Below, piece by piece: positions 5,224 to 36,694 of a stretch of 45,753 nucleotides of DNA. The stretch lies in assembly GCA_024278975.1 (NCBI GenBank), contig JAJRSD010000034.1:1-45753 (forward strand), read 5' to 3'. The position numbers and the translations under genes were made by a program. Numbering within the stretch: the stretch's first letter is position 1; each line of letters opens with the position of its first letter. This DNA comes from Bacteroidota bacterium. Lineage in GTDB: Bacteria; Bacteroidota; Bacteroidia; Bacteroidales; Prolixibacteraceae. The notes below the pieces were generated by a model, which was not told the DNA's origin, ran no database searches, and worked only from the letters and a program-made list of their open reading frames with translations.

Positions 5224-6261
5224 TTAATATCTTAATTTAATATCACCATATTTACTACGAATCATAACCTTTCCTCCAACTCCCGAACCAATTTTTCCGT
5301 TAATGGTTTTTGTGTTATTCTCTTTTATTTTGTTTCCAACAAATTCATCTTCCGGGTACGAAATTCCACAATAATTACAACTTGCATCAATAGAATAATT
5401 TGCATCATCAAATCCGAGCGAAATTTGTCCATAACTATTTGTAATAGAAATAAAATCGAAATCTGCTGCCACCTTATCAACTTTTACACTTCCATAACCC
5501 GCTTCAATTTTCAAGCTTTTTGCCAACTCATCAATTCGTAAATGACTGTATTTTGTATCGGCTGTAACCGATTGAACTTCTTCGAATTTTAGCTCATCAT
5601 ATTTCGATTGAACTTCCATATTTTTTCCCTCTTCAACTGTAATATCAGAATATTTTGATTCGAGTTTAAGGTTTTTAATCTCCCCAAAACTTATTGGCGA
5701 ATATTTTACTTGCGCTTGTATATTTCCACCCGAAACAATATCTGCATTCCCGTACGCAAGTGCTATTTTTACTTTTTCGCCGGTTAGTTTATTTGCCGAG
5801 AAATTTCCATATTGAATATCAAAATATCCATCTCCTGTCAATTCATTTACAAATGTATTTCCATATTTATTTGTAATTTTCAGGTTCTTGTCCACCGGAA
5901 TATTCACAACATAATCTATACTAAACTCTCTCTGACTTTTAAAATTACTGGCAATTGTTGTAGTAGCTTTTGCCACAGTTCCGCTTTTTCTGAATGTTAC
6001 ATTAATTTTATTCAAAAGGTCGTTGGCTCTTTTTTCGTCGCGGGCATTAACAGTAATAACAACATCGATTGTAATATCGTTACCTCCACTGTTTACCACT
6101 TTTATTTCGCCAAATTTGTTGGCAATTTCCAATGTTTGAATGCTACTTGCAGCCCATATTTGGTTATACTCTTTTGTTTTTTCTTCTGCAAGCAAAGTTG
6201 TTCCGGCAGATAAAAAACCGATGACAAATAGTGCAGCAATTAATTTAAATGTTTGTTTCAT
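5224..6261 (-). CDS. Exported DUF4097-like beta-repeat protein
   Basis: A 345-residue exported protein with a signal peptide (~1-25, ending TTLLAE). The rest is a run of short beta-strand units with recurring patterns such as NKFGEIKV, NKYGNTFV, IQYGNFSA, AGYGSVKV, NSYGQISL and SKYGDIKL. This is characteristic of DUF4097/adhesin-like beta-solenoid proteins. It is the last gene of a three-gene operon: its start overlaps the end of the upstream anti-sigma-like gene by 17 bp, and a strong terminator follows. The position suggests an envelope protein tied to the output or sensing of the sigma/anti-sigma pair. No enzymatic motif is visible, and its molecular role is unknown. Confidence 0.72.
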   Translation of the reverse strand: MKQTFKLIAALFVIGFLSAGTTLLAEEKTKEYNQIWAASSIQTLEIANKFGEIKVVNSGGNDITIDVVITVNARDEKRANDLLNKINVTFRKSGTVAKATTTIASNFKSQREFSIDYVVNIPVDKNLKITNKYGNTFVNELTGDGYFDIQYGNFSANKLTGEKVKIALAYGNADIVSGGNIQAQVKYSPISFGEIKNLKLESKYSDITVEEGKNMEVQSKYDELKFEEVQSVTADTKYSHLRIDELAKSLKIEAGYGSVKVDKVAADFDFISITNSYGQISLGFDDANYSIDASCNYCGISYPEDEFVGNKIKENNTKTINGKIGSGVGGKVMIRSKYGDIKLRY

Positions 6262-27673: not shown

Positions 27674-28738
27674 TTATTTTTTAGAAATATAGTTAGCAAT
27701 CCAATCTCCAACCTCCGAAGTTTTGAATGCTTGTCCTTCAGCAATATCTTCAGTTACAATATTTTCGGCTATGGAAGCTGCAACAGCATCGCGAATTATT
27801 TTTCCCTCTTCTTTTAAATCGAAAGCATATTCGAACATCATTGCTGCCGATAGAATTGTTGCAATTGGGTTTGCAATATCTTTACCTGCTGCTTGTGGAT
27901 ACGAGCCATGAATAGGCTCGAACACTGATGTGTGAATTCCCATTGAAGCAGAAGGAAGCAACCCCAACGAACCGGTAATTACGCTTGCCTCATCGGTAAG
28001 AATATCGCCAAACATATTTTCAGTTACCATCACATCGAAGTTTTTAGGCCACTGTATAATTTGCATTGCCGCATTATCAACAAACATATATTCAGTTTTG
28101 ATATCGGGATAATTTTGCTCCATTCCCTGTGCAACTTCGCGCCACAAACGCGAGCTTTCCAAAACATTTGCCTTGTCAACAACTGTAAGTTTTTTATTTC
28201 GTTTTGCAGCAAATTCGTAACCCAGTTTTAAAATACGCTCAATCTCTGCGCGTGTGTATGTGCAAGTATCAAAAGCAGTATCACCATTATCTTTTCTGCC
28301 CTTTTCACCAAAATAGATACCACCGGTTAGTTCACGGATACAAACAAAATCGGCTCCCTCAACCAACTCGCGTCGAAGTGGCGATCTGTGCAACAGCGAG
28401 TCGAAAGTTTCCACCGGACGAATGTTGGCGTACAAACCTAACTTTTTACGCATGGCAAGCAATCCCTGCTCGGGACGGACTGTTGCTTTCGGATTATTAT
28501 CGAATTTCGGGTCGCCAATTGCACCAAACAAAACGGCATCCGATTTCATACAAAGCTCGTGCGTTTCCGGCGGGTACGGATCGCCGACTTTATCGATTGC
28601 CACAGCTCCTGTTAAAGCATATTCGTACTCTAACTCGTGATTAAATTTTTTGGCAACAGCTTTAACTGTTTTCATCGCTTGTTCAACTATTTCCGGTCCG
28701 ATTCCGTCGCCGGATAAAATTGCAATATTTAGTTTCAT
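27674..28738 (-). CDS. leuB: 3-isopropylmalate dehydrogenase
   Basis: 354 residues, normal length. It catalyses the NAD-dependent oxidative decarboxylation of 3-isopropylmalate in leucine synthesis, and can act on methylmalate when citramalate synthase feeds the pathway. Visible family motifs: [13 protein letters not shown] near the start, [14 protein letters not shown] (~67-80), the VVDKANVL segment with the catalytic Lys189, and the metal/NAD signature [12 protein letters not shown] at 241-252 followed by [10 protein letters not shown]. It is the last gene of the leu operon, 59 bp after the citramalate synthase-like gene across a four-unit heptamer array, and is followed by a terminator. 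Confidence 0.96.
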
Positions 28739-28797: not shown

Positions 28798-30384
28798 TTA
28801 TTTTGAAGTTGTATTATTTGTTTTATTCAGAGTTTCCTTGCTAAAATCATTTTCAATAATGTTTAACATCCGAATTGTAGCTTTCATTGCAGCAGTATTT
28901 TGATCCGGATCCAGTCCTTTCGTTTTAAATTCGTGATCACTTTTCCATGTAATAATTGTTTCAACCAAAGCATTGGTTTTTCCACCCGGAGGAATAGTTA
29001 CAACGTAGTCAACAAGTTTTGGAAGTGGTTTTCCCAGCCGATCGTAGATTTTTCGAATCGATTTTACAAAAGCATTATATTGTCCATCGCCATCACTAAA
29101 TTCCTCATAAAATTTACCGTCAATTTCCAGAGAGACATTGGCAACCGGGCGTAATCCCATGGTATGATTTACCGAATAATTTACAACGTGTATTTTCTGT
29201 TCAAAGTGATCGTTCTCTAAAGCATCGGCCACAATATACGGTAATTCGTCGCTGGTAACTGTCTCTTTTTTATCCGCTAAATCGATAACTCGCTGTGTAA
29301 CTTTTTTTAACGACTCCGCATCAAGTTCAATTCCAAGGTCTTGTAAATTCTTTTTAATATTGGCTTTACCCGATGTTTTTCCCAGCGCGTATTGTCTGAT
29401 TCGACCAAAACGTTCGGGCAGCAATTCATTAAAATAGAGATTATTTTTGCTGTCTCCATCGGCATGAATTCCGCTACATTGTGTAAATACGAATTCGCCG
29501 ATAAGAGGTTTATTGGTTGGAATCCGAATACCCGAAAAAGTTTCGACTAACCGGGAAGCTTTATTTAGCTCGCTTTCGATTACATTAGTTTCCATTTTCA
29601 GATGATCCTTAATTGTAGCAATTACACTCGACAGAGGTGCATTTCCGGCACGCTCGCCCAAACCGTTTACAGTTGTATGAACGCAGCGAATACCAGCTTT
29701 TATTGCATGAAAAACATTTGCAATTGCCAAATCGTAATCGTTGTGAGCATGAAAATCAAACTCAACATCGGGAAACGAAAGAATCATCTCTTTACAGAAA
29801 TCATAAGTTTGATCCGGATCTAAAAGTCCTAAAGTATCGGGAAGCATAAAACGATCTATTCTCTCATCTTTTAATTCTGAGATCATAAAATGAACGTACT
29901 CTTTCGAGTTGCGCATTCCGTTAGACCAGTCTTCGAGATAAACATTTACCCGGATACCCATTTCGGTGGCATTGGCAATCACATTTTTAATGTCAGCAAC
30001 ATGTTGCTCGGGGGTTTTGCGCAACTGTTCGGTAACATGTTTTAGAGATCCCTTACAAAGCAGATTTAAAACTTTGCCTCCCGCATCGGCAATCCATTGC
30101 AACGAAATTTTATCATCAACAAAACCAAGAACCTCAACTTTATCGAGATATCCTTTTTCCGAAGCCCATTTCATCACACGCTTAGTACCTAAAAATTCAC
30201 CTTTTGAAACTCTTGCCGAGGCAATTTCAATACGATCTACTTTTACATCTTTAAGTAATATTTTCGCGACACTCAATTTTTCCAGTTCGCTAAACGAAAC
30301 GCCTGATGTCTGTTCACCATCGCGAAGAGTGGTGTCCATAATTATCAATCGTTTTCCTTTTATATCAACTGTTTCGCCAGTCAT
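28798..30384 (-). CDS. cimA: Citramalate synthase-like / second alpha-isopropylmalate synthase paralogue
   Basis: 528 residues of the DRE-TIM acyltransferase family. [16 protein letters not shown] (17-32) carries the metal-site Asp and the conserved Arg, and HAHND at 212-216 supplies the metal-binding histidines. The [17 protein letters not shown] segment is typical. The C-terminal LeuA-type allosteric domain (~400-510) includes [15 protein letters not shown]. It belongs to the CimA-like clade encoded inside Bacteroidota leu operons. That clade condenses acetyl-CoA with pyruvate to give citramalate, from which LeuCDB make 2-oxobutyrate for isoleucine. The substrate assignment (pyruvate rather than 2-oxoisovalerate) is inferred from operon context and divergence from the canonical leuA at the operon head. 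Confidence 0.82.
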
Positions 30385-30405: not shown

Positions 30406-30996
30406 TTAATTGTCTTTCTCGAAAGCAGCAATTTCCTCTTTCATATCAACCAGGTAATCAATATCGTCTAAACCATTTTGCAAGCAGTGCTTTTTATATG
30501 AGTTTATTTCGAAATCGATTGTATCGTTTGTTGCTGAAATAGTAAATATCTGTTTTTCCAAATCTACTTCAAAAGTCGTATTTACATCTTTTTCTATTGT
30601 CGTAAATATTTTTTGAAGGAATTCAGGAGTTACAACAACCGGAAGCAGTCCGTTGTTCAGTGCGTTACCTTTAAAAATATCAGCAAAAAAACTGGATACT
30701 ACTACACGGAAACCATAATCGTAAATTGCCCAGGCTGCATGTTCGCGACTTGAGCCGCTGCCAAAGTTTTTCCCGGCAACAAGTATTTTGCCCGAGTAAA
30801 TATTGTTGTTAAGCGGAAAATCACTTTTTGGACTGCCATCTTTTTCATATCGCCAGTCGCGAAAAAGGTTATCACCAAATCCTTTTCGCTCAATTGCTTT
30901 TAAAAAGCGAGCTGGAATAATCTGGTCTGTATCCACATTCTCGATAGGAAGTGGAACCGCGGGTGATGTTATTTTTGTAAATTTATCGTATGCCAT
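30406..30996 (-). CDS. leuD: 3-isopropylmalate dehydratase small subunit
   Basis: 196 residues, the usual size. With LeuC it isomerises 2-isopropylmalate to 3-isopropylmalate. The start has [20 protein letters not shown], the swivel-domain signature. [15 protein letters not shown] (from ~78) is the conserved glycine-rich substrate loop. [24 protein letters not shown] completes the fold. It lies 21 bp before the citramalate synthase gene and is separated from leuC by the gene for a four-helix-bundle protein, which breaks the usual leuC-leuD adjacency. Confidence 0.95.
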
Positions 30997-31057: not shown

Positions 31058-31411
31058 TTATTTTTTTGATTGAATTGTCTTTCTCGATGCTACAAAAATT
31101 GCAGTTAGTTCTTTTGCTTCTTTCATCAAAGAAGAGGCAATTTCTTTTGAAACAATTTTTTCATCTAAAGCAAATTCTAACCAGAAATCACATTCATCCA
31201 CTTCTTCAATAACTATTGATAATTTTGCTGCAAAAGCAGCAGTTGAATGTGCTAAATTTACTGCTCTGTAATTTGCTGCAACAGAAGTTGCACATCTGAT
31301 AAGTTGTCCTTCAATATGAGAACCTAATTTATTTTTAGGTAGAGAAATTGCAACTTTTACACATTTATGCGCAAAAACTTTTGTCCTTTTAATAAGTTCA
31401 TATTTATTCAT
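31058..31411 (-). CDS. Four-helix-bundle protein (23S rRNA intervening-sequence type)
   Basis: 117 residues, all helical by appearance. Typical segments are KVFAHKCVKVAISLP at the start, HIEGQLIRCATSVAANYRA, and the later EEVDECDFWLEFALDEKIVS, matching the small S23/IVS four-helix-bundle family. Members form ring-like multimers, and some genes sit in 23S rRNA intervening sequences; the function is unknown. This copy lies between leuC (30-bp gap) and leuD (61-bp gap), on the same strand, so it is co-transcribed with leucine biosynthesis. Both its flanks are short heptamer arrays. It has no evident biochemical link to the operon and may be a cargo insertion. Confidence 0.88.
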   Translation of the reverse strand: MNKYELIKRTKVFAHKCVKVAISLPKNKLGSHIEGQLIRCATSVAANYRAVNLAHSTAAFAAKLSIVIEEVDECDFWLEFALDEKIVSKEIASSLMKEAKELTAIFVASRKTIQSKK

Positions 31412-31441: not shown

Positions 31442-32836
31442 TTATTTTCGGGGATCTGAAATAACTCCCGAAATTGCGGCTGCTGCTGCTGTTATGGGAC
31501 TTGCAAGCAGTGTTCGCGCACCCGGTCCTTGTCTTCCTTCAAAGTTTCTGTTCGATGTTGAAACAGAATATTTGCCTGCCGGAATTTTATCGTCGTTCAT
31601 TGCTAAACATGCCGAACACCCGGGTTGACGTAACTGAAATCCTGCATCTTCGAGTATTGAAATTAGTCCTTCGGCACGAATTTGATTTTCAACTTGTTTA
31701 GAACCCGGAACCAACCACGCGGTAATATTTGGTGCTTTTTTCTTGCCCTTTACAAATTCAGTAAATTCTCTAAAATCTTCAATTCTACCATTTGTACAAC
31801 TTCCAAGAAACACATAATCAACAGGTTTTCCTTCAATTTTATCACCTGCACCAAAACCCATGTATTGTAGCGATTTTTCGAACGATGATTTGTCGCTGCC
31901 TTCCATTCCTTCGGTGGTGGGGATATTTTTAGAAATTCCAATTCCCATTCCCGGGTTTGTTCCAAATGTAATCATCGGTTCAATGTCTGCTGCATCGTAA
32001 ATTAATTCCGTATCAAAAACTGCATCATCATCTGTTTTCAGTTCTTTCCATTTTGCAACTGCTTTATCCCAGTCAGCTCCTTTTGGTGCAAACTCGCGAC
32101 CTTTTACATATTCGAAAGTTATTTCGTCGGGGGCAATCATTCCACCCCGTGCACCACATTCAATACTCAAATTACAAAGTGTCATTCTACCTTCCATCGA
32201 AAGTCCGGTTATTGCCGAACCTGTATATTCAATAAAATGCCCGGTTCCACCGCTTGTCGATATTTTTGATATTATATAGAGTGCAATATCTTTTGCAGTA
32301 ACTCCTTTCGCAAGAGTACCGTTAACAGTAATTTTCATCTTTTTTGGTTTGGGCTGCATAATGCACTGGCTTGCGAAAACCATCTCCACTTCGCTGGTGC
32401 CAATACCAAAAGCAATTGCACCAAACGCACCGTGTGTTGAAGTATGACTGTCGCCACAAACAATTGTCATTCCCGGTTGGGTAAGTCCCATTTCGGGGCC
32501 AATAATATGAACAACACCGTGTCCTTCGGTTCCCAAATCGTGGTGTACAATTCCGTTTTCAGTACAATTTGTTTTTAGCATTTCGAGCTGATGCCGCGAA
32601 AGCTCATCTTTAACAGAAAGATGCTGGTTAATTGTGGGAACGTTATGATCTGGTGTGGCAGTGGTTTTTTCAGGGCGTAGAACTTTTAATCCCCGGTTTT
32701 TCAAACCTAAAAATGCCACCGGACTTGTTACTTCATGGATTAAATGTCTGTCGATATATAATACATTTGGGCCACCTTCAACTTTTTTCACAACGTGTGC
32801 ATCCCAAATTTTATCGAATAATGTTTTTACTGTCAT
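31442..32836 (-). CDS. leuC: 3-isopropylmalate dehydratase large subunit
   Basis: 464 residues, full length. This is the aconitase-family catalytic subunit, partner of LeuD, with a [4Fe-4S] cluster. The cluster ligands are visible as Cys347 (FLGSCTNGR) and Cys407/Cys410 (QPGCSACLA). Active-site segments [20 protein letters not shown] (127-146) and GGMIAPDE are intact. It is second in the operon, 336 bp after leuA. That spacer is unusually long and consists mainly of heptamer arrays and a 18-bp palindrome. Confidence 0.97.
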
Positions 32837-33129: not shown

Positions 33130-33178
33130 TTGACTTTATACTCACTACTAATTACTCACTACTTTCCTAACTCTACTC
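33130..33178. repeat. Heptamer array overlapping the end of leuA
   Basis: TTGACTT, TATACTC, ACTACTA, ATTACTC, ACTACTT, TCCTAAC and TCTACTC, in phase. The last unit runs over the leuA stop codon (33173-33175). Confidence 0.6.
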
Positions 33179-34678
33179 CGCCACTGGCAATTTATTGATA
33201 GCATCTAGAAATGCTTCAACCGAAGCTGTAATAATATCGGTGTGTGCTCCAAAACCATGAAAGATATTGTCTTCGTAAACCACTTGCATGTGTACTTTTC
33301 CAATATCGTCGCTGCCTCGTGTAATTGCCTGCACCAAAAACTCTTCGATAATAACCTGACGGTGGATAATCTGTTTTACAGCTTTTATTGCTGCGTCAAC
33401 AGGACCGTTACCCGACGAAGTTGCATCGAATTTTTCACCCGAAATATCTAACCGAATAGTTGCCATTGGTTTCAGATCTTTACCCGAAACTACCTGTAAA
33501 TAATTTAATTTTATACGGCGTTCTTTACGTGTTGCATCGCCAACTAACAATGCAATATCGTCGTCGCGAATATCTTTTTTCTTATCAGCCAGATTTATGA
33601 AATCTTCATAAATTTTATCTAATTTTTCTTTGTCAACTTCAAACCCAAGCAACTCTAATCTGTGTTGTAACGCGGCACGGCCACTTCTTGCAGTCAACAA
33701 AATTCCCGATTCGTTGATTCCCACATCTGTTGGATCCATAATTTCGTAATTCTCGCGGTTTTTCAGAACGCCGTCCTGATGAATTCCTGAAGAGTGCGCA
33801 AATGCATTTCGACCAACGATTGCTTTATTTGGCTGAACCGGCATATTCATCAGAGTTGAAACCATGCGGCTGGCGCCATATATTTTTTTTGTGTTAATTC
33901 CTGTATCAATATTTAAAACAGCGTAACGACTTTTCAGAATCATCACAATCTCTTCCAGCGAAGTATTTCCGGCACGTTCGCCAATTCCGTTAATCGTAAC
34001 TTCTGCCTGGCGGGCACCGTTCATAATCCCGGCAATGGTATTTGCGGTTGCCATTCCAAGGTCGTTGTGGCAGTGTGTTGAAAGAATAGCGTTATGAACA
34101 CCGTTTACATTTTCCATCAGGAATTTAATTTTATCACCAAATTCATTGGGAAGTGTATAACCGGTTGTATCGGGAATATTTACGACAGTTGCGCCAGCTT
34201 TAATTACAGCTTCAACAACTTTTGCCAGATATTCGTTTTCTGTTCTCCCGGCATCTTCGGCATAAAACTCGACATCTTCAACATATTTTTTTGCATATTT
34301 TACGGCTGCAACAGCACGTTCAATAATTGCATCGGGGTTTGAGTGCAGCTTATGGAAAATATGAAAATCGGAAGTCCCGATTCCGGTATGAATACGACCT
34401 TTTTTCGCATATTTTAGTGATTCTGCTGCTACGTCGATATCCTTTTCAACTGCGCGGGTAAGGGCGCAAATAGTTGGCCAGGTTACCGCTTTTGATATTT
34501 CAACCACCGATTCGAAATCGCCCGGACTCGAAATTGGGAAGCCGGCTTCAATAACATCAACTCCCAAATCTTGTAACGTTTTTGCAACTTCAATTTTTTC
34601 TACTGTGTTTAACTGACAACCGGGAACCTGTTCGCCGTCCCTCAAAGTTGTATCGAAAATGTAAAGTCTGTCGCTCAT
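33173..34678 (-). CDS. leuA: 2-isopropylmalate synthase
   Basis: 501 residues. It condenses acetyl-CoA with 2-oxoisovalerate, the committed step of leucine synthesis. [17 protein letters not shown] (7-23) gives the metal-binding Asp and substrate Arg. [12 protein letters not shown] and [12 protein letters not shown] (HxH at 202-204) complete the TIM-barrel site. The linker carries [18 protein letters not shown]. The C-terminal regulatory domain (~385-500) includes [13 protein letters not shown], so leucine feedback is expected. It is the first structural gene after the leader-peptide attenuator (34768-34908), with start ATG 90 bp past the attenuator's T-tract. Confidence 0.96.
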
Positions 34679-34767: not shown

Positions 34768-34801
34768 AAAAAAAAAGCCACCCTCTTTTCTGAGAATGGC
34801 T
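34768..34801 (-). terminator. Intrinsic terminator of the leu attenuator
   Basis: On the minus strand AGCCATTCTC (34801-34792) pairs with GAGGGTGGCT (34785-34776). This gives a 10-bp stem with two G-U pairs and a 6-nt loop AGAAAA, followed directly by nine T (34776-34768). It lies upstream of leuA, so it stops transcription before the structural genes unless the alternative structure forms. Confidence 0.88.
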
Positions 34802-34836
34802 CTATTTTTTCAAATATTTTTTACTACACACCATTC

Positions 34837-34908
34837 TCACTTTTTCTGTAACAGAAGAAGGATACCAATAATCAGGTTAAGAATAGAAATGTTGATAATG
34901 CTTTTCAC
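34837..34908 (-). CDS. Leu-operon leader peptide (LeuL-like)
   Basis: A 23-residue frame starts at GTG 34908 and ends at TGA 34837; an in-frame stop lies four codons upstream, so no longer version exists. It begins M-K-S-I-I-N and contains seven Ile and six Leu among 23 residues, finishing with Ile, four consecutive Leu codons (CTT CTT CTG TTA), Gln-Lys-Lys and stop. It is followed by overlapping antiterminator and terminator structures. Its job is to sense charged tRNA-Leu (and perhaps tRNA-Ile) by ribosome position, not to make a functional protein. It resembles enteric LeuL in logic but not in sequence. The GTG start without a Shine-Dalgarno sequence is usual for this phylum. Confidence 0.82.
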   Translation of the reverse strand: MKSIINISILNLIIGILLLLQKK

Positions 34909-35026
34909 TTTATTTACTTACGATTTGATGCAAATATCAAAATATTTTTTTAAAATGAAAATATATGGCAGCTTTTTATTGGAATACTTTAGATTGAGAT
35001 AATAAACTCTGTTATTTTTTATTACA

Positions 35027-35081
35027 GTCATGCTCTCACTTCTTATTCTGGTCATGCTCTCACTTCCCGTGAGAGTATGAC
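35027..35081. repeat. Direct and inverted repeat (REP-like hairpin) between ostA-like gene and leu leader
   Basis: GTCATGCTCTCACTTC occurs at 35027-35042 and 35051-35066. The second copy also forms a hairpin: GTCATGCTCTCAC (35051-35063) with GTGAGAGTATGAC (35069-35081), 13 pairs with one mismatch and a 5-nt loop. It sits past the end of the ostA-like gene and could stop its transcript, but no T-tract adjoins it. Confidence 0.6.
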
Positions 35082-35113: not shown

Positions 35114-36694
35114 CTACTTTTCTAAGACACCTGATTTTTCATCAATTATTATTTCGCCCCGTGGAAAAATATCGTATTTAGAGAGTGGGCGCAGCCTTAT
35201 TTTCCAGTCGAAGTCTTTTAGTTTTTTATCTGCCTCTGTTAATTCTAACAGTGGTTTTAATTCACCTTCAGGAGATTTAATAAAAATAATCTGATGAATT
35301 TTTCCATCTAAAAACCGAATAGATATTTTACTGCTTTCGGCGCGGTTAATACCAATAATTTCATCTTTTTCGCGGGCATAATAAAGTGTTTGCCCGTTGC
35401 CGTTTACATTAATCTTTTTAAGCTCCTGGTTAACAATATAACCAATCATCTCTTTTCCTTTTATCTGGTCGAACTGCCCGGTGTCTTGTTTCGAAATAAT
35501 AAAACTTTTTTTTGTAAGCCGTAGTTCGTCGGGACCATTGCTAATTTGTCGCATCTCAATTTTTTCTGCCGAAAGCTGGTGGTTTTCCGACCAAATTACA
35601 GGATTCTGATACATTTGAATAATCGAGTCTTTTGTAAAATATACCAGCGAGTCGCAGAGTCCCTGCATATCGGTTCTAAAAAAGCGCACTCCATAATAAG
35701 CTGATACAATCTTTTCGCCCTCAACTGTATCGGGAACGGTGCGAAGTGTATCGGCATGTAAAAACAACGAATCGGTTGAAGTATAAGTTATAAAAACTGC
35801 CGAGTCGGTAACAACTGTAGTCTCCTTCGCCTTGTTAAAATCTGCTGAATTACCAAGAATAATCGATCGGTTTTCCATATCCTCGAACCGAACCGAACCG
35901 AGTGCTTTTCCCGCTCCGTTAACTTTATTGTATTTTATGTATTTGGCATCAAGCTTTTGAGTATTGTTATAAATACTTGCTTTCCGTTTTAGCTCAGCCT
36001 CTCCGGTTTTAGAGTCGTACCAACCGCCTTCGGTATAAAGTGTATTTGCCGAGTCGCGGATTGTAGTTGGTCCTTCAACAAACATTTTACCGGTTTCGGT
36101 ATTATATTTTACAGTGTCGCTTTTTAACGTAAAATCTTCGTTATAACCATCCACATCTTTATAAAAATAGATGTTATTTTCGTCGATTAAATATTTACCA
36201 ATTATACTTGTTAATGTTGTTGTGCTGTCTTCTATACGTCCAAAATTATTGTAATAACAGATATTATTTTCCAGATCGTAGTCGAGTGTATCGGAATACA
36301 GTTTAACATCTTTATTAATCAATACCACGTTGTTCCAGGCTTGGGCAAAACTTATATCGCCATCGTAAAAAACATTGTTTGCATATAAGTGCAGAGTGTC
36401 GCCTTTTTTAATATGAACATGTCCGATGGCATCTACTTTATTGGTTCCGGAATAAATAATGGCAGTATCGCACCACATTAAAATTTCCTGGTGACGGATA
36501 AAAACGCTGTCAACAAGTCGTTGTGCATTGGCAGGCAAACTTTCGTCTGATTCGCCATAACCAGATTTTAAAATTTCAATCCTCTTTTTTTCTTGCGAAT
36601 ACGAGAGCGATGAAATTAAGAGCAATACAAAAACAATCTTCAAAGTGAGAGATTGGGAGGTAAGAAAAATTCTATTGAAAGAGAGAGAGTGCAT
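35114..36694 (-). CDS. OstA-like (LptA/LptD-type) envelope protein
   Basis: 526 residues with a signal sequence after an extended N-terminus (core ~19-31, ending SLSYSQ). The mature part is a run of beta strands of the OstA/LptA jellyroll kind, with recurrent phrases such as SGTNKVDAIGHVHIKKGDTLHLYANNV, VKLYSDTLDYDLENN, KSDTVKYNTETGKMFVEGPT and VNGAGKALGSVRFEDMENRS. The family is linked to lipopolysaccharide transport to the outer membrane. It is the last gene of the envelope string: its ATG shares one base with the stop codon of the MoxR gene, so translation is coupled. Its end is followed by a REP-like hairpin at 35051-35081. Confidence 0.85.
   Translation of the reverse strand: MHSLSFNRIFLTSQSLTLKIVFVLLLISSLSYSQEKKRIEILKSGYGESDESLPANAQRLVDSVFIRHQEILMWCDTAIIYSGTNKVDAIGHVHIKKGDTLHLYANNVFYDGDISFAQAWNNVVLINKDVKLYSDTLDYDLENNICYYNNFGRIEDSTTTLTSIIGKYLIDENNIYFYKDVDGYNEDFTLKSDTVKYNTETGKMFVEGPTTIRDSANTLYTEGGWYDSKTGEAELKRKASIYNNTQKLDAKYIKYNKVNGAGKALGSVRFEDMENRSIILGNSADFNKAKETTVVTDSAVFITYTSTDSLFLHADTLRTVPDTVEGEKIVSAYYGVRFFRTDMQGLCDSLVYFTKDSIIQMYQNPVIWSENHQLSAEKIEMRQISNGPDELRLTKKSFIISKQDTGQFDQIKGKEMIGYIVNQELKKINVNGNGQTLYYAREKDEIIGINRAESSKISIRFLDGKIHQIIFIKSPEGELKPLLELTEADKKLKDFDWKIRLRPLSKYDIFPRGEIIIDEKSGVLEK

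Follow-up and report, generated by a model that had tools for sequence, protein, structure and literature searches.

A predicted leader-peptide attenuator ahead of leuA in Prolixibacteraceae and related Bacteroidales

Immediately upstream of leuA on a Prolixibacteraceae contig (JAJRSD010000034.1, of which the window, the whole stretch analyzed, spans 45,753 nucleotides) a short frame crowded with isoleucine and leucine codons runs into a pair of alternative hairpins. Is this a ribosome-mediated attenuator, and if so, which amino acid would it sense? An attenuator calls for an intrinsic terminator ahead of the first gene, an antiterminator exclusive with it, a short frame in which codons for the regulated amino acid cluster, and control codons spaced so that a stalled ribosome frees the antiterminator arm. 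We take these in turn.

The leader and its alternative hairpins

All elements lie on the minus strand (Table 1). The first-pass annotation had described a 23-codon frame with seven Ile and six Leu codons, and direct reading of the minus strand returns the same frame, encoding (V/M)KSIINISILNLIIGILLLLQKK. The four consecutive Leu codons are also present, but they do not directly precede the stop as had been claimed; "just before the stop" was loose wording, because three codons (Gln-Lys-Lys) intervene. The arm starting at the stop codon matches a stretch inside the 5′ arm of the terminator perfectly over 9 bp, as first reported, or over 10 bp counting the next U-G. The terminator likewise re-reads as a 10-bp stem, a 6-nt loop and T9. 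It is formed by AGCCATTCTC (34801–34792), the loop AGAAAA, GAGGGTGGCT (34785–34776) and T9 (34776–34768), the first T of which doubles as the last paired base; two of the ten stem pairs are G-U. An intrinsic terminator of predicted activity thus stands ahead of the first gene, leuA, which starts about 90 nt past the predicted terminator end.

Table 1. Coordinates of the leader elements and operon genes in the window
Feature	Position	Strand	Details
ATATTTG motif	34931..34937	-	present in the 45 nt before 31 of 32 genus leaders
Leader peptide frame (putative)	34837..34908	-	GTG start 34908, TGA stop 34839-34837, 23 codons; homologous frames in relatives
Control-codon run Ile-Leu-Leu-Leu-Leu (ATC CTT CTT CTG TTA)	34849..34863	-	12-24 nt ahead of arm
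Antiterminator arm (segment 2) TGAGAATGG	34831..34839	-	overlaps leader stop codon
Segment 3 CCATTCTCA	34791..34799	-	common to antiterminator and terminator
Intrinsic terminator (predicted)	34768..34801	-	10-bp stem, 6-nt loop, T9
leuA, 2-isopropylmalate synthase	33173..34678	-	first operon gene; NF002086, 742.7 bits (cut-off 532)
leuC	31442..32836	-	TIGR00170, above its cut-off
Four-helix-bundle protein gene	31058-31411		between leuC and leuD; TIGR02436
leuD	30406..30996	-	TIGR00171, above its cut-off
Citramalate synthase-like (CimA/LeuA2) gene	28798..30384	-	best model NF042433 CimA, 660 bits (curated cut-off 950)
leuB	27674..28738	-	TIGR00169, above its cut-off

Judged by pairing, the antiterminator and terminator are predicted to be mutually exclusive. 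The terminator segment has a predicted fold of −16.8 kcal/mol and the antiterminator segment one of −14.0 kcal/mol, neither equaled in 200 shuffles. A 69-nt piece containing both hairpins is predicted to adopt the antiterminator together with a weak 3′ helix, at −17.1 kcal/mol (1/200 shuffles as good), and the bare 189-nt leader to adopt the terminator, with the arm paired to the coding part of the leader (again 1/200). A trp-like 1:2 hairpin also appears in the predicted leader fold, but 72 of 200 shuffles do as well (z −0.29).

The ATATTTG motif ends 17–25 nt ahead of the leader start in genus leaders, and by the Bacteroidota consensus it is a possible −7 promoter box. Within the operon, the CimA-like gene is assigned tentatively, its best model scoring below the curated cut-off, and it may represent an isoleucine branch. 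One genome (G040) has a leader, MNKTIIILSIILLA, that keeps its Ile codons while the cimA-like match lies on another contig; this bears neither way on a link between Ile codons and CimA. Window positions 35027–35080, downstream of the gene ending at 35114, contain CTCTCAC/GTGAGAG as an inverted repeat and GAAGTGAGAGCATGAC as a direct repeat of 16 bases, with no T-run.

Recurrence and pairing among relatives

Counting the window, 33 of 35 genus loci have this layout before leuA; a usable leuA start was available in 35 of 37 genomes. One exception (L004) is truncated by a contig end. The other (L036), from a genus relative with a 2.2 Mb genome (G024), has kept a terminator-like hairpin while its frame and antiterminator arm have decayed, a natural loss. 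In two groups of loci from other families of the order the layout stands before leuA in 6/13 and 7/8 (13/21 together), and among named records in 48/80, some of which are genus members again. Prolixibacteraceae, Draconibacterium, Maribellus and Mariniphaga head the named records; lower-ranked ones with a detected layout include Bacteroides, Parabacteroides, Prevotella and Tannerella. None of 32 class-level leuA regions outside the order has the layout, leuA not necessarily being the first gene there. The upstream-region sample took 40 of 61 non-own regions. The first-pass annotation had staked its reading on conservation of the Leu run and the exclusive stems in relatives, and this is borne out: leader, terminator and antiterminator are conserved across the genus, and the same elements recur in other Bacteroidales families with different sequences and compensatory changes.

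These counts depend on a detector that requires a hairpin with a T-run, a complementary arm and a nearby Leu/Ile-rich frame; its limits and the arm choices were set after looking at data, and its initial versions missed short T-runs. Applied to the window, it returned candidates in 3 of 422 tiles, one being this locus (score 77) and the remaining two a single Leu/Ile-poor frame at 5265 (score 59). A score of at least 66, a limit fixed after inspecting detector results, was reached in 99 of 168 leuA upstream regions, among which some genomes occur twice, and 94 of those 99 had at least six Leu/Ile in eight residues. No dinucleotide shuffle out of 672 reached both limits, and only one gave any candidate. 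The element is visible by eye in five further regions (L102, L104, L120, L150, L166), and at class level two (L074, L077) carry a hairpin and arm behind Leu/Ile-poor frames; all seven were excluded from the group counts.

Within the genus the arms are, by eye, nearly fixed, with GAGAATGG, GAGAGTGG or GAGGATGG opposite CCATTCTC in 34 of 35 loci, and covariation is absent from genus-type arms because they are near invariant. An alignment of this type (A1; 58 candidates reduced to 37 rows at 97% redundancy, with L004, L028 and L115 too short and L102 without a T-run) was selected with GAGRRTGG...CCATTCTC as the search pattern, which builds in the near-100% pairing and the A/G-only variation of arm 2, so that neither is a test. 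Other families show a shifted antiterminator helix, with a common TGAG/CTCA core retained and the extension on its other side (GGAAGTGAG pairing with CTCACTTCC). Outside the genus, in an alignment of 31 of 33 hand-picked arms (A2; L170 and L127 left out), compensatory changes occur at 4/8 antiterminator and 6/11 terminator pairs, which 0/500 shuffles reach; one terminator pair is unpaired in 18 of the 31 rows. Sliding the antiterminator partner by +1 also yields 4 pairs and 9 doubly changed cells, compared with 4 and 8 observed, but only 46.6% of cells are then paired versus 94.4% observed, and the covariation score drops to 0.049 versus 0.241.

Because these arms were picked by complementarity, a separate arm test was run without leader or arm filter. 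The 168 regions were reduced to 90 by dropping 53 that lacked a terminator, 22 near-duplicates and 3 short ones, and each terminator's own upstream 85 nt was shuffled. The best arm per terminator beat all 60 shuffles in 49/90 cases and was matched by at most three in 66/90; eight of the 90 terminators had no uninterrupted arm. Four of these eight terminators (L125, L126, L138, L155) follow Ile/Leu-rich frames ahead of leuA, where the arm may be gapped or a different mechanism may operate.

Codon spacing and codon content

Counting back from the stop, codons −5, −6, −10 and −11 encode Leu or Ile in every one of 43 distinct window-type leaders. Pairwise differences among 27 distinct 23-codon leaders fall at codon positions 3, 1 and 2 in 212, 147 and 72 cases, a tally of leader pairs with up to 14 differences that are not independent events. 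The short frame with its clustered Leu and Ile codons is therefore conserved as a frame and in its codons, its translation being putative.

The spacing between codons and arm was measured in 68 distinct leaders with an arm score of at least 17 and a Leu/Ile run of at least six in eight. Distances start at the first base of the run's last codon, defined for this purpose as the second of the last two neighboring Leu/Ile codons. The distance to the arm is 14.7 ± 2.8 nt (median 15), whereas that to the stop is 20.5 ± 10.3 nt (range 6 to 48), the detector admitting a stop only within about 40 nt around the arm. The median of 15 nt holds both for leaders with the arm at the stop (46) and for those with the arm more than 10 nt before it (19); four outliers, at 20–26 nt, all belong to the latter class. 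An overlap of arm and stop codon, noted in the first-pass annotation, is thus present at the window locus but is not general, as the arm lies inside the leader end in 19 of 68; leaders with the stop well beyond the arm include some from Bacteroides and Prevotella. A nearly constant run-to-arm and a variable run-to-stop distance in these sequences point to stalling, rather than stop-codon position, as what sets the design. A ribosome with a codon in its A site reaches about 12 nt ahead, so one held at the last run codon would leave the arm just free. With this footprint, the median of 15 nt in 68 leaders places the control codons where a stalled ribosome would free the arm.

A covariance model built from genus-type leaders matched in 81 of 295 genomes of the order. 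Of 123 matches listed, 46 distinct places were considered, with leuA downstream in 17, ilvD in 19, ilvB in 1, hisG in 2 and gltB in 3; three (L231, L245, L248) have no leader and one (L225) was left out. Twenty of the stretches were chosen as second or tandem matches, and downstream genes were named by eye from their first residues, seven proteins being confirmed by family search. Val makes up 7/164 of the Leu, Ile and Val residues in 16 leuA leaders versus 74/193 in 16 ilv leaders, and is missing altogether from 11/16 versus 0/16; these 32 leaders, the window's among them, were compiled by hand from part of the leaders read and are not a random sample. The two hisG leaders are His-rich.

In the window's own genome, ilvD is preceded by a leader, MKFLSVNILVLLVVVLGLSERG, that has an arm and a terminator of its own, and hisG by a leader, MTTEQRHRGHHWNNQPSGRL, with three His and an 8-bp arm that includes G-U pairs; no such element was seen by eye in the 420 bases before the match to this genome's gltB. 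Among 30 ilvD upstream regions, six (L171–L175, L199) have a detector match with a branched-chain-rich leader, one (L186) a match without such a leader, and 23 no match. By eye, three class-level ilvD regions outside the order (L189, L190, L200) hold Ile/Val-rich short frames followed by hairpins that the detector missed.

Proposed mechanism, rival readings and known systems

Taken together, the sequence evidence argues strongly for ribosome-mediated transcription attenuation of the leuA-leuC-leuD-cimA-like-leuB operon by this element. The classical logic of ribosome stalling, invoked in the first-pass annotation, gains support from the conserved leader, the exclusive stems and the compensatory changes. 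The promoter, the operon, translation, stalling, termination and the amino-acid response are inferred. RNA polymerase would start a little downstream of 34931, followed by a ribosome translating the leader. A shortage of charged tRNA-Leu, and probably of tRNA-Ile, would stall this ribosome on the Ile/Leu run, leaving arm 2 bare to pair with segment 3; no terminator would form and the operon would be transcribed. With both charged tRNAs plentiful, the ribosome would reach the stop and cover arm 2, segment 3 would pair with segment 4, and transcription would end at the T-run near 34768. If the switch works as proposed, leucine and isoleucine would be made only when short.

The best reading of the codons is that the attenuator senses charged tRNA-Leu, with tRNA-Ile probably sensed too. 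Sensing of leucine alone by the same attenuator, with the Ile codons explained by the one-change proximity of ATT and CTT or by RNA reasons, is the less probable account, though one with points in its favor: the operon is a leucine operon, and the three codons nearest the arm (−5, −6 and −7) are Leu in 39, 35 and 29 of the 43 leaders of the window's type. Against it, Ile is as frequent as Leu in the 16 leuA leaders (88 Ile, 69 Leu), residue −8 is Ile in 37 of 43 while Val, found there once, is rare, and the operon's CimA-like gene could, tentatively, feed isoleucine. The original description as a leucine leader therefore stands as regards the conserved Leu run and falls short as regards isoleucine; the leader is as much an Ile leader as a Leu leader.

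Two readings would do without attenuation by a translated leader. The frame resembles a short membrane helix, and a hydrophobic peptide with its own job, membrane or type I toxin-like, whose small RNA ends at the terminator, would produce a free-standing terminated transcript, which is expected under either reading. Such a peptide would leave the arm complementarity and spacing unexplained, and since equivalent leaders carry runs of His ahead of hisG and of Val ahead of ilvD, residue type tracks the operon, which favors control codons and disfavors a membrane peptide; we regard this reading as extremely improbable. A riboswitch or T-box-like element, in which the RNA itself recognizes a ligand or protein and the frame is incidental, would account for the strong mutually exclusive hairpins and for some bases that are conserved between the arms of genus-type leaders. 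It is nonetheless very unlikely, given that the frame varies as coding sequence does and stays at a set distance from the arm, and given the lack of an Rfam match at gathering score in the window or in 11 other loci.

Attenuation by leader peptides is textbook biology, and Vitreschak in 2004 reportedly predicted attenuators in Bacteroidetes/Chlorobi. One of the nearest counterparts is Leu_leader (RF00512), the enteric leuABCD attenuator, with a Leu-codon leader, exclusive antiterminator and terminator, and a position before leuA. The window element has these features in common with it, but also has Ile codons, lacks a supported 1:2 hairpin and belongs to another phylum; the RF00512 covariance model gave no match at this locus even up to E 10. 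A permissive Rfam search of 351 bases, also up to E 10, returned 17 sub-threshold matches, the two strongest being RalA (36.4 bits against 170 required, and on the opposite strand) and FuFi-1 (23.9 against 59.6). Thr_leader (RF00506) and Phe_leader (RF01859) align weakly over the whole window element and are alike in general layout, but membership is rejected at 22.7 and 15.1 bits versus gathering scores of 55. Bacteroid-trp (RF01692), whose context is trp, matched neither the window, nor 11 further loci, nor this locus in the permissive search.

In Weinberg 2010 (PMC2864571), Bacteroid-trp RNA is presented as a candidate cis-regulatory RNA of Bacteroidetes. The S. aureus attenuator peptide that controls branched-chain synthesis (PMC5794164) is, by its description, leucine-rich and branched-chain like the window leader, and comes from another phylum. 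A Flavobacterium psychrophilum map reports strong clues for leader-peptide attenuation before amino-acid operons, the same phylum and idea as here, and names no leu leader in the part covered (PMC9723704); a B. thetaiotaomicron map describes short frames reminiscent of attenuation-mediating leader peptides (PMC7366714). Across the passages surveyed, no leu leader of Bacteroidota is named. Attenuation here is thus known in kind and has been proposed before in the phylum, and the leu element scores below the gathering thresholds of Rfam. The attenuator set spans the order, from Bacteroides, Parabacteroides and Prevotella records to Prolixibacteraceae, with no Rfam family found.

We tentatively propose, judging it nearly as probable as its opposite, that Bacteroidales use one attenuator architecture with a codon-to-arm ruler, its codons switched to suit leu, ilv, his and perhaps gltB operons, and that two such attenuators stand in series at some ilv operons (L237, L238, L241). 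The ruler and the codon swaps among leu, ilv and his leaders would make translation-transcription coupling in Bacteroidota directly testable.

The less expected part is the tandem ilv copies and the gltB leaders. Before ilvD, ilvB and ilvD, respectively, L237, L238 and L241 hold two complete leader-peptide attenuators in tandem, each copy with a branched-chain-rich leader, an arm and a terminator; such pairs, if true, would act as a serial two-input gate. L239 also has two such leaders, with hairpins that the arm scan did not return. Before gltB, encoding the glutamate synthase large subunit, L233, L235 and L250 have a TGAGAATGG-type arm and a terminator, and their leaders hold Lys and His, not a branched-chain run.
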